This document shows positions 10,410-14,631 of a DNA stretch of 54,526 nucleotides, piece by piece; positions within the stretch are counted from its first letter, which is position 1, and the number at the start of each line of letters is the position of its first letter. Source of the DNA: Bacteroidales bacterium (GTDB taxonomy: Bacteria; Bacteroidota; Bacteroidia; Bacteroidales; JAADJA01); the NCBI GenBank assembly GCA_016783885.1, contig JADHVR010000016.1:1-54526 (forward strand). Reading direction: 5' to 3'. The translations under genes were made by a program, and so were the position numbers. The notes beneath the pieces were generated by a model. That model saw only the letters and a program-made list of their open reading frames with translations, did no database searches and was not told the origin of the DNA.

Positions 10410-10490
10410 ATGGTATTTAGTTCCCCTGTTTTTCTACTGGTTTTTTTACCGGCAACATTATTTTTCGGAATTATCGGTTTAACGGATTAA
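10410..10490 (+). pseudogene. 5' fragment of the AlgI-like gene, cut off by the insertion element
   Basis: An ATG at 10410 opens MVFSSPVFLLVFLPATLFF, a typical N-terminus of an MBOAT acyltransferase. After codon 19 the frame enters the insertion element and stops at TAA 10488-10490. Joining this fragment through the TTATTTTT target duplication to 12077 onward continues in frame into TLILPRRFQNI and then the ATG at 12111. This rebuilds a protein of about 483 residues. The fragment alone cannot be functional. Confidence 0.88.
10458..10465. repeat. Left 8-bp target site duplication
   Basis: TTATTTTT directly precedes the left terminal inverted repeat and is repeated exactly at 12069-12076 after the right one. 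Eight base pairs is the usual duplication length for the IS1595 family. Confidence 0.93.
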
Positions 10491-10491
10491 A

Positions 10492-11475
10492 CTAATTTTT
10501 ATCTACCATCGCTAACTTTATTAATGATTTAAACATATCATCATGTTTACGGTTATTGAATTTAAAAACTGCCTCATTTACATATTTATCCAGGTATTTA
10601 ATATCTACATGGTGATGCTGCCCTACGATTTGTCGTTCTATTATTGCCCAAAATGATTCTATTGTGTTTGTATTTAGTCCACGATAGGAATACATTTTTT
10701 TGTGATTAATGACAATATGGTTTATTATTTCCTTGAATTTCAAGTTTGATCTTGCCTCATCAGTAAGTAGTACGGTCTTTTTACGATCTTTATTTACATA
10801 CTTGTCAATGATTTTTCTCAATTCCTTAAAAGAGGTATTTTTAACAACGTGGGCTATTACATCTCCATCCCTTGCAACTGCACCTGCTATCTTTTTATTA
10901 CTTGCTCCCTCACCTCTTTTTTGATTTCCTACCTTGCATGGTTTTTTGTATTTGCCTTCTTTAAATTCAAATCCTTTTTTGGTGTAATACTCTTTTTGAT
11001 CGTCAAGTTCCGGGATATGGGTTGGGGTTCCTTTTTTCTCTGCCTGACATTTCCGCATATCCTCATCTACTATTTTTGTATCCAGTTCAACTATATGATC
11101 CAAATGTATTTTTTCATTTTCAATACTCATTAAATCCCTTATCTGGTGATACATTTTCCAAGCTGTTTCGTAATGTATGCCTAAGTTACGCTCTAATTGC
11201 TTTGCTGAAATTCCTTTCTTTGCATCGCTGATTAAACCGAAAGCAAATAACCATTTTTGAAGTGTTAGGCGGGTATTGTGGATTTGGGTTTTTGTTGTAA
11301 CGCTAAAAGTCCGGTTACAACTAAGGCAGTGCCACCTGTTATCTTTTGTGCGCTTGCTTATTTTTTTTGAATTACAGAAAGGACAAATAATTGTTTTGCC
11401 CCACCTGTATTTTTCAAAATGCTTTATGGCATCAAATTCCGTTGGGAATTTTTGTGATATTTCAATTATATTCAT
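10492..11475 (-). CDS. IS1595-family transposase (ISXO2-like)
   Basis: A 327-residue protein starting at ATG 11475. Its N-terminus has the family zinc ribbon (CPFCNSKK ... WHCLSCNRTF), then a helical region (LTLQKWLFAFGLISDAKKG, ISAKQLERNLGIHYETAW). The DDE-type catalytic domain follows, with plausible acidic residues in VELDTK, LLTDEA and NTIESFW. Length and domain order fit intact IS1595 transposases, and no frameshift was seen, so the element may be active. The stop lies next to the inner end of the left terminal inverted repeat. Confidence 0.95.
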   Translation of the reverse strand: MNIIEISQKFPTEFDAIKHFEKYRWGKTIICPFCNSKKISKRTKDNRWHCLSCNRTFSVTTKTQIHNTRLTLQKWLFAFGLISDAKKGISAKQLERNLGIHYETAWKMYHQIRDLMSIENEKIHLDHIVELDTKIVDEDMRKCQAEKKGTPTHIPELDDQKEYYTKKGFEFKEGKYKKPCKVGNQKRGEGASNKKIAGAVARDGDVIAHVVKNTSFKELRKIIDKYVNKDRKKTVLLTDEARSNLKFKEIINHIVINHKKMYSYRGLNTNTIESFWAIIERQIVGQHHHVDIKYLDKYVNEAVFKFNNRKHDDMFKSLIKLAMVDKN

Positions 11476-11486
11476 AGGGTTTTATT

Positions 11487-11996
11487 TTATTGAGGGTTGT
11501 CAGGTTCATAGGTTTCAAAATCCGTTTTCAATACATAATCGTTATTTGCAATGCTTTTTACAACACCTTCAATGCCTTTGTTTGCAAAGTCGCTTTTCAT
11601 TTGTTGAATTTTGTCAAAATTATATGATGATCTTTCAATTAGGCCATTTAGTTTTTCTATCAAATTATTTATTTCCGATTTGTCAGCTTTGTTCGATATA
11701 TTATTTATTTCCGATTTGTCAGCTTTGTTCGATATATCAGGTATTTCCGATTTGTCAGCTTTTTGCTGATATTTTTTTCGTATCCATTGGATAAAATATA
11801 AAATCAGCAAAAAGCCGACCAATGGAACCATGATTTGCAAGAACGGTGTCCAGTTTCCCATATCAATATTAATTTGTTTAATTGCTTCGTTAACTTGTTT
11901 GATTATTTCAATAATTACTGCAAGCACAATGGTTGATATTATTTTCCCCCAATTTGTGTTTGCAATCCATTTTGCTAATTTGTTAAGTCTTTTCAT
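11487..11996 (-). CDS. Passenger membrane protein of the insertion sequence, unknown function
   Basis: This ORF lies inside the element, upstream of the transposase and separated from it by 11 bp, so the two are probably co-transcribed. The ATG at 11996 (MKRLNKLAKW) gives 169 residues; a TTG at 12026 would add ten. Two hydrophobic segments are visible (IISTIVLAVIIEI and FLQIMVPLVGFLLILYFI). They are followed by a basic stretch and two and a half copies of a 12-residue repeat containing KADKSEI, then a helical tail. The topology suggests a small inner-membrane protein with a cytoplasmic coiled coil. I recognise no family. Confidence 0.7.
   Translation of the reverse strand: MKRLNKLAKWIANTNWGKIISTIVLAVIIEIIKQVNEAIKQINIDMGNWTPFLQIMVPLVGFLLILYFIQWIRKKYQQKADKSEIPDISNKADKSEINNISNKADKSEINNLIEKLNGLIERSSYNFDKIQQMKSDFANKGIEGVVKSIANNDYVLKTDFETYEPDNPQ
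11671..11762 (-). repeat. 36-bp tandem repeat inside the passenger gene
   Basis: The unit starting ATTTCCGATTTGTCAGCTTT occurs at 11671, 11707 and (20 bases only) 11743. The first two copies differ only at their last few bases. In protein it gives 12-residue repeats beginning KADKSEI. The near-identity points to recent slippage or unequal exchange. Confidence 0.85.
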
Positions 11997-12068
11997 ATCT
12001 TTGTTGTTTTTAAGTTTAACTTGCAAAGATATGATATTTTATATTTATCCGTTTAACCGATAATTCCG

Positions 12069-12076
12069 TTATTTTT
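12069..12076. repeat. Right 8-bp target site duplication
   Basis: TTATTTTT follows the right terminal inverted repeat and matches 10458-10465 exactly. Only one copy belongs to the original gene. Confidence 0.93.
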
Positions 12077-12110
12077 TACCCTAATCCTTCCGCGCAGGTT
12101 CCAAAATATT

Positions 12111-13472
12111 ATGTTGCTGATCGCCAGTTTGTTTTTTTATGCCTGGGGTGGTGTCAGTTTCTCTTTGATCATAGTTACATCCATTACCATCAATTATATC
12201 GTCGGAAGACAGATTGCTAAAAGAGAAGGAAAAAAAGGAGCAAAGAATGCCCTCATTTTAGGATTGGTTCTGAATCTCTTACTGTTGGGCATTTTTAAAT
12301 ATGCTAATTTTATTATTGACAATTTGAATGTTGTTTTTGACTGGATACACCTGGAGCCTATAAAAATGAATTCCATCTATCTTCCCATTGGCATTTCCTT
12401 TTTCACTTTTCAGGCTATCTCATATATTGTGGATGTTTATAAAAAGAAAACACCGGCTCAGAAAAATCTCATTGACCTTGCCCTTTACATTTCGTTGTTT
12501 CCGCAGCTTATTGCAGGTCCGATTGTCCGTTATCATGATATTGCCAAACAGTTGAGAAACCGGATTCCCGGTATAAAGAAGTTTGCTTCGGGTGTGGAAA
12601 GGTTTATCATAGGCCTGGCCAAGAAAGTTTTGATCGCCAACACCTTTGCGCTGGTAGCTGATAAAATATTTGCTCTGGAAATAGCAGAGATGAGCACCTC
12701 CATGGCGTGGCTGGGTGCCGTTGCCTATACTTTTCAAATCTATTTTGACTTTTCAGGATATTCCGATATGGCTATTGGGTTGGGGCGAATGTTTGGGTTC
12801 GAGATACTGGAGAACTTTAATTTCCCTTATATTTCAAAATCCATAAGGGAGTTTTGGAGAAGATGGCATATCTCGCTTTCCAACTGGTTCAGGGATTATT
12901 TGTACATTCCTCTTGGTGGGAACAGGAAAACACAAGGAAGGGTGTTCCTGAATCTCCTGATCGTATTTTTTCTCACCGGCTTCTGGCATGGAGCAGCCTG
13001 GAGTTTTGTAATCTGGGGTTTGTTTCACGGATTATTCCTTGTGATTGAAAGAGTTGGATTTGAAAAAATTCTGAAAAGGTTATGGGCACCTTTGCAACAT
13101 GTTTACGTTCTTTTAGTAGTGATATTCGGTTGGGTATTTTTCAGGGCGGAAAATATTCAATACGGATTTGGATATATCAAAGCAATGCTCGGTATTGAAA
13201 CTCAGCCTTCGGAATGGACCCTGATGGAGGAATACCTGAATAATGAGGTTTATCTCGCTTTGATTATTGCAACACTGGGGTCAACCACCATCTTTGTACT
13301 TATACAAAAACAATTTCAAAAACTGCAAACACATTTCAATCATGTAGTCAATCTAATTTTGAACAATGTATTTTCAGTTTTGTCAATCGCAGGATTGATA
13401 GTAATCCTCATAATGTCGTTAAGCTATCTGGCATCAAGCACTTACAATCCTTTTATCTACTACAGATTTTAA
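12111..13472 (+). CDS. AlgI-like MBOAT membrane O-acyltransferase, N-terminus removed by insertion
   Basis: MBOAT proteins of the AlgI type pass acetyl groups across the inner membrane to an exopolysaccharide O-acetylating partner. The family signatures are present: RRWHISLSNWFRDYLYIPLGG-like motif near residue 252 with its invariant His, and the second conserved His in LTGFWHGAAW. About ten hydrophobic helices can be traced. The annotated ATG at 12111 is only an internal Met: the true start is at 10410, and 30 residues including most of the first helix are cut away by the insertion element. An in-frame stop at 12054 inside the element blocks any longer product. Whether translation from 12111 gives an active enzyme is unknown. 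The partner gene begins one base after the stop. Confidence 0.9.
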   Translation: MLLIASLFFYAWGGVSFSLIIVTSITINYIVGRQIAKREGKKGAKNALILGLVLNLLLLGIFKYANFIIDNLNVVFDWIHLEPIKMNSIYLPIGISFFTFQAISYIVDVYKKKTPAQKNLIDLALYISLFPQLIAGPIVRYHDIAKQLRNRIPGIKKFASGVERFIIGLAKKVLIANTFALVADKIFALEIAEMSTSMAWLGAVAYTFQIYFDFSGYSDMAIGLGRMFGFEILENFNFPYISKSIREFWRRWHISLSNWFRDYLYIPLGGNRKTQGRVFLNLLIVFFLTGFWHGAAWSFVIWGLFHGLFLVIERVGFEKILKRLWAPLQHVYVLLVVIFGWVFFRAENIQYGFGYIKAMLGIETQPSEWTLMEEYLNNEVYLALIIATLGSTTIFVLIQKQFQKLQTHFNHVVNLILNNVFSVLSIAGLIVILIMSLSYLASSTYNPFIYYRF

Positions 13473-13473
13473 A

Positions 13474-14631
13474 ATGATAAGATTTAAAAATATACACATC
13501 AAATCATTAATTTTAAGCTTTGCTTTTTTACTGGTGATCTATATGCCGTTTTTTGATTATATGTTTAATTTATCAACCCCCAACCTCAAAGCAGAAAACC
13601 GAAAGCTGGCTGAAAAGCCTAAGGTGGATATTACAAGTCTGGACTATTTTCCAAAAGAATATGATGCTTATTTTAACGATCATTTCCATTTCAGAAACGA
13701 CCTTATTCTCTTACATTCCAGTTATAAATTCAATATCCTTGGAATTTCCCCTTTTAAAAAGGTGGCCGAAGGAAAAGAAGGCTGGTTATTCCATGCCACA
13801 GAATATCTTGAAGATTACAGGAGCAAAGAATTATTTTCGAAAAAAGATCTTATAAAAATGGCTACAGCACTTGAGTACAGGCAAAAGTGGTATAACGACA
13901 GGGGGATTAAATTTTACATGGCTGTGGCCCCAAATAAAGCCAGTATTTATGAAGAATATATCCCGGGCTTTGTATATCGGGTTCACGGAACTTCCAAATA
14001 TGATCAATTGAAAGACTACCTTGAGGAAAATTCTACCTTCAACCTGATTGACGTCAAGGATGTTCTATACGAAAACAAAAAAGAGCATACTTTGTATTAT
14101 AAAACCGATCCTCACTGGAATATTCTCGGTGCTTTTATGGCTTACCAAGAGATTTTGAAAACCATCAAAAAGGACTTTCCGGATATACAGCCCCTAACTA
14201 TAAATGACTATTCTATTAAGTATGATACAGTACCGGGAAAAGGACTTGCCAGAATGTTAAATATGGTTTCAGAATATCCTGATATTGATGTCCTGCTTCA
14301 TCCTCGATTTAAAGTTAAAGCAACTTATTATCCAAAAACTATCTATCAGGTTCCTGAAGAGTTTTATTACAAAAAGGAATATGAGATTAGATGGTTTGTC
14401 CCCGAAAGTAAGCAACCCAGTGCAATGATCATCCGGGATTCGTTTACAAATGCTTTGATTCGCAGATTTGCCGAAACCTTCGGACAAACACTTTTTATTT
14501 GGGATAGCTGGAAATATCAATTAAATGAATCAATTGTTGAAAATGAAAAACCGGATATCCTACTTATCGTTATCATAGAAAAAAATCTCCCGATGTTTTT
14601 TGAAAATATTGAAGATTTTGAGATAGAATAA
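13474..14631 (+). CDS. AlgJ/AlgX-like (DHHW) polysaccharide O-acetyltransferase partner
   Basis: A 385-residue protein with an N-terminal membrane anchor (LILSFAFLLVIYMPFF). It contains DHFHFRNDLILLHS and EGKEGWLF typical of AlgJ/AlgX/DHHW proteins, and the YKTDPHWN motif near residue 213 that carries the SGNH-like catalytic Asp-His pair. IIRDSF near residue 312 probably holds the nucleophile Ser. Such proteins receive acetyl groups from the MBOAT partner and attach them to polysaccharide in the periplasm. It starts one base after the AlgI-like stop, so the two form an operon. No alginate synthesis genes are nearby, so the acetylated polymer is probably another surface polysaccharide. Confidence 0.85.
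   Translation: MIRFKNIHIKSLILSFAFLLVIYMPFFDYMFNLSTPNLKAENRKLAEKPKVDITSLDYFPKEYDAYFNDHFHFRNDLILLHSSYKFNILGISPFKKVAEGKEGWLFHATEYLEDYRSKELFSKKDLIKMATALEYRQKWYNDRGIKFYMAVAPNKASIYEEYIPGFVYRVHGTSKYDQLKDYLEENSTFNLIDVKDVLYENKKEHTLYYKTDPHWNILGAFMAYQEILKTIKKDFPDIQPLTINDYSIKYDTVPGKGLARMLNMVSEYPDIDVLLHPRFKVKATYYPKTIYQVPEEFYYKKEYEIRWFVPESKQPSAMIIRDSFTNALIRRFAETFGQTLFIWDSWKYQLNESIVENEKPDILLIVIIEKNLPMFFENIEDFEIE

Follow-up and report, generated by a model that had tools for sequence, protein, structure and literature searches.

The window, by which we mean the whole 54,526-nucleotide stretch of Bacteroidales DNA that was analyzed, contains a gene of the AlgI/DltB type split by an IS1595-family element, and we consider it very probable that this insertion was recent and has greatly lowered or abolished the gene product. 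The element, its flanking duplications, the empty site in a sister species, the split frame and the single copy of the element were all observed directly; we infer that the insertion is recent on this lineage and that the product of this one gene is greatly lowered or abolished. The disruption, although well supported, is of an ordinary kind and leaves general ideas unchanged. It shows a single acyltransferase gene cleanly interrupted in nature, with the unoccupied site known from sister species, and so illustrates well how an insertion sequence has recently cost a lineage a gene; it also adds a new IS1595 element.

The element and its insertion site

The element occupies positions 10466-12068 (1603 bp, annotated without strand) and is recognized by its inverted ends and family domains. 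The arms of the terminal inverted repeats extend over 10466-10495 and 12039-12068; within the outer 25 bp, represented by 10466-10490 (plus strand) on the side of the transposase 3' end and by 12044-12068 (minus strand) on the passenger side, the two ends differ by two mismatches, T/A at positions 15 and 23. The IS1595 family has ISXO2-like DDE transposases and comprises the groups ISPna2, ISH4, IS1016, IS1595, ISSod11, ISNwi1 and ISNha5; an N-terminal zinc ribbon is typical of all of these except IS1016. Both features are present in the transposase encoded at 10492-11475 on the minus strand (327 aa), which matches the DDE_Tnp_IS1595 domain (PF12762, 80.8 bits, cut-off 27; NF033547, 129.9 bits, cut-off 75) and the zinc ribbon (PF12760, 35.7 bits, cut-off 25.4), the latter with Cys 31, 34, 50 and 53 in place.

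The flanks of the element are identical over 8 bp, with TTATTTTT at both 10458-10465 and 12069-12076 (likewise without strand), which is the size of target-site duplication reported for the IS1595 family (PMC8101967). In a window-wide control, 8-mers shared at the same spacing were found in 2 of 52,907 position pairs. The original prediction of an IS1595 element at 10466-12068, with 25-bp inverted repeats containing two mismatches and identical 8-bp flanks, therefore agrees with the coordinates, the flanks and the Pfam and NCBIfam domains. We propose that the element transposed into codons 17-19 of the AlgI/DltB-type membrane O-acyltransferase gene with duplication of 8 bp, an event that cut the gene off from its start and from the first membrane segment predicted for its product.

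The strongest evidence for insertion comes from G013, a sister species of the same genus that has a real empty site: its region (L007) is uninterrupted and lacks the element. The DNA identity between G013 and the window is approximately 95% upstream and 97% downstream of the element, and G013 matches the joined window sequence base for base over 28 positions on the upstream side of the junction and 20 on the downstream side. The frame is likewise unbroken, and its N-terminus almost the same, in G007 (L004) and G005 (L005); in this comparison, which used one genome per species, G001 was not counted for the empty site, its region being cut by a contig end. When the flanks of the element are joined with one duplication, an open frame of 483 codons results, beginning MVFSSPVFLLVFLPATLFFTLILPRRFQNIM. 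Owing to the real empty site in G013 and the frames in G007 and G005, the ancestral frame is a comparison with real sequences and not an inference. The claim that this frame could be recovered by removing the element and one flank is thus borne out by all three relatives, and these relatives do code through the fragment corresponding to 10410-10465, rather than lacking a frame there.

Fate of the interrupted gene

On the 5' side, the algI-like MBOAT gene retains 10410-10465 (plus strand), which takes in 18 whole codons, beginning with the ATG at 10410, plus most of codon 19, a stretch that is continuous with the rest of the gene in L007. Reading from this original start now runs into the element and meets a stop at 10488, after 26 codons. 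The 3' remainder (12077-13472, plus strand) is preceded by an in-frame stop at 12054, has no ATG, GTG or TTG ahead of its first in-frame Met at 12111, and encodes 453 aa from that Met; as originally predicted, the AlgI-like protein here lacks its first 30 residues. The 453-aa frame shows no further damage and retains the whole Pfam MBOAT match (PF03062, 117.4 bits, cut-off 27; residues 119-348), and the remainder matches DltB (structure 6BUG) with an E-value of 2.3e-29. The window copy thus shares with AlgI/DltB proteins the MBOAT domain, the DltB-like core and an adjoining AlgX/AlgJ-like SGNH partner, but differs from them in being split within codon 19, so that the complete AlgI/DltB-type N-terminus, which is present in L004, L005 and L007, has been separated by the element. 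An N-terminus of the type MxFSSxxFLxxFLP...RN occurs in 14 of 18 homologous loci, although the pattern is loose and this conservation is partly its product. Because the original start is followed by a stop after 26 codons, the genes of the element face away from the 3' part, and the downstream Met omits the conserved N-terminal segment, the product of this gene would be greatly lowered or abolished; its loss or strong reduction is the most likely outcome.

The adjacent AlgJ/AlgX-like partner (SGNH hydrolase-like; 13474-14631, plus strand) is open and matches PF16822 with 74.2 bits (cut-off 26.5), which supports the earlier view that the partner is intact. By contrast, the suggestion that polysaccharide acetylation may be off was not borne out: the genome carries two other full-length, intact MBOAT genes, and acetylation in general therefore cannot be called off. 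Since this genome (G000:C110) is a draft assembly of 4.15 Mb in 155 contigs with a completeness of 89.65%, both this number of paralogues and the copy number of the element, which is one, are lower bounds.

The recency of the insertion, which had also been predicted, is supported by the empty site in the sister species, by the single copy and by the search of 16 same-genus genomes, in which neither a close relative of the transposase nor any homologue of the passenger was found. In the remaining AlgI frame, dS between the window and G013 is 0.124 and dN is 0.0052 (pairwise dN/dS 0.04); when G007 serves as the outgroup, the window lineage accounts for 12 synonymous and 2 non-synonymous changes and the G013 lineage for 12 and 1, respectively. 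The low dN/dS indicates strong purifying selection on the gene for most of the period since G013 and the window lineage split. These substitution counts suggest either that the insertion is recent relative to that split or that the remainder of the gene is still in use.

Alternative explanations

The second of these readings, that the gene still works through translation from Met 12111, perhaps driven by a promoter of the element that faces outward, and yields a functional 453-aa protein, appears to us unlikely. A shortened protein of this length, if made, could still work, because the frame is otherwise undamaged and the MBOAT core is kept whole, and the purifying selection on this lineage is in favor of such a protein. 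The selection signal, however, would be mostly older than the insertion if the insertion is recent, and the conserved first segment of the protein is gone. Moreover, a promoter scan, which does not model Bacteroidota promoters, stayed at the level of shuffled sequence, with 10 hits against 9.2 expected. A terminator scan gave 2 against 1.3 expected, barely above chance. Met 12111 is common to G013, G007 and G005 but is replaced in more distant homologues; the idea of a rescue by initiation at 12111 is consequently weakened as a designed feature, whereas an incidental start at this position is possible. We thus favor loss or strong reduction of this product, and the same junctions that identify the insertion make it extremely improbable that an artefact of assembly or binning fused an element with an unrelated gene. 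The assembly is indeed a draft with many contigs, but an artefact would not create paired 8-bp duplications at the two junctions together with flanks that match one continuous stretch of G013.

The original prediction also held that the mutation might be reversed by exact excision. A reversible switch, in which some members of the population regain the gene through precise excision, would be consistent with the exact duplications and ends, since precise loss of the element yields an open frame; loss that leaves both duplications, however, shifts the frame and leads to an early stop. The transposase is in addition altered at 8 of the 42 alignment columns for which the other transposases show conservation of at least 90%, and the movement of related elements is thought to be replicative, with a proposed replicative excision in which the original copy stays in place (PMC5704250). 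The frameshift, the unusual transposase and the replicative movement proposed for relatives together weaken the excision proposal, and we regard such a switch as very unlikely.

The transposase and its passenger gene

In an alignment of 79 transposases, D132, D239 and E273 of the window transposase are kept at columns that are at least 99% conserved, and these residues are assigned by family motif as the putative catalytic triad. The eight departures from near-invariant columns (consensus to window: F65I, E133T, G137D, G138E, K193N, Y244N, K280E and S291D) make up the second highest count in this alignment, whereas the closest relatives of the enzyme have at most four each. Among them are the position directly following the first D and the two glycines of the VGG motif. 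A further one is the Lys that lies seven positions beyond the Glu (conserved at 99% across the alignment, E280 here); this Lys is not a formal criterion for IS1595 and concerns activity rather than membership. The insertion shows that the element has moved in the past, through its own transposase or one acting in trans; judging from these residues, the transposase may have diverged while staying active, or it may have been impaired already and been moved in trans. The time that the lineage has had since the G013 split (approximately 5% synonymous change) looks too short for all of the departures to postdate the insertion.

The element resembles other members of the IS1595 family in its zinc ribbon and DDE domain above the family cut-offs, its 8-bp duplications, its terminal inverted repeats and its possession of a passenger gene, and it differs from them in the several altered near-invariant residues and in its distance from the nearest transposases (Spirosoma L049, G379 L050 and G206 L051), which are 45-50% identical. 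No further close relatives were found in the class of G206, and at the sequence level the element is new, the nearest transposase being approximately 50% identical.

The passenger ORF (11487-12026, minus strand; likely ATG at 11996, 169 aa) is the first gene in the element, preceding the transposase in the same orientation, and encodes two hydrophobic segments followed by a repeat-bearing tail that by eye is coiled-coil-like. Three tandem copies of a 36-base repeat at 11664-11771, two of them identical, give rise to a recurring KADKSEI-type sequence and suggest recent repeat expansion. The passenger matched no Pfam or NCBIfam family above the curated cut-offs and no PADLOC model, and a search of 99 relatives, 395 genomes of the phylum and plasmids returned only its own copy.

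Passengers are known in this family, and IS1595-type elements with cargo include MTnSag1 and tISCpe8 (PMC5704250). Among the relatives of the window transposase, those of L050, L051, L025 (2499-3017) and L049 (4002-4436) lie beside an ORF of approximately 145-177 aa that combines hydrophobic segments with a stretch resembling a coiled coil. In L050 (2453-2986) and L051 (977-1504), this ORF comes first and extends into the start of the transposase gene, and the two passengers are homologous to one another (31%, E 1e-23). Homology of the window passenger to these two was considered and rejected, the architecture being alike but the sequence similarity unconvincing (BLASTP E 0.020; hhalign probability 1.3%). 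A universal first-gene arrangement was similarly set aside, as the ORFs of L049 and L025 lie on the other side of the transposase. It is conceivable, albeit unlikely, that the membrane/coiled-coil passenger is more than idle cargo and that such a protein regularly accompanies this branch of IS1595 transposases, with a part in controlling transposition or in the interaction between host and phage.

Cargo of other IS1595-type loci

Inverted ends together with an exact 8-bp duplication allowed 31 of 79 IS1595-type loci to be delimited, 28 of them from viral contigs, compared with 0-1 of 79 in controls; this collection, with its viral contigs L054-L133, is biased toward phages. Examples are L065 (2357-4438), L062 (301-2628), L122 (2928-4860) and L118 (2843-6042). 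Nearly all of the delimited loci carry cargo, which is varied and in part matches models of anti-phage defence, namely PDC-M50A/M50B with a ThsB-like TIR protein, PDC-S42, PDC-S45 and BstA; such cargo may outweigh the gene disruption itself in value. In genome G094, an ORF that by eye is DNA methyltransferase-like (L026, 107-1009) adjoins an IS1595-type transposase.
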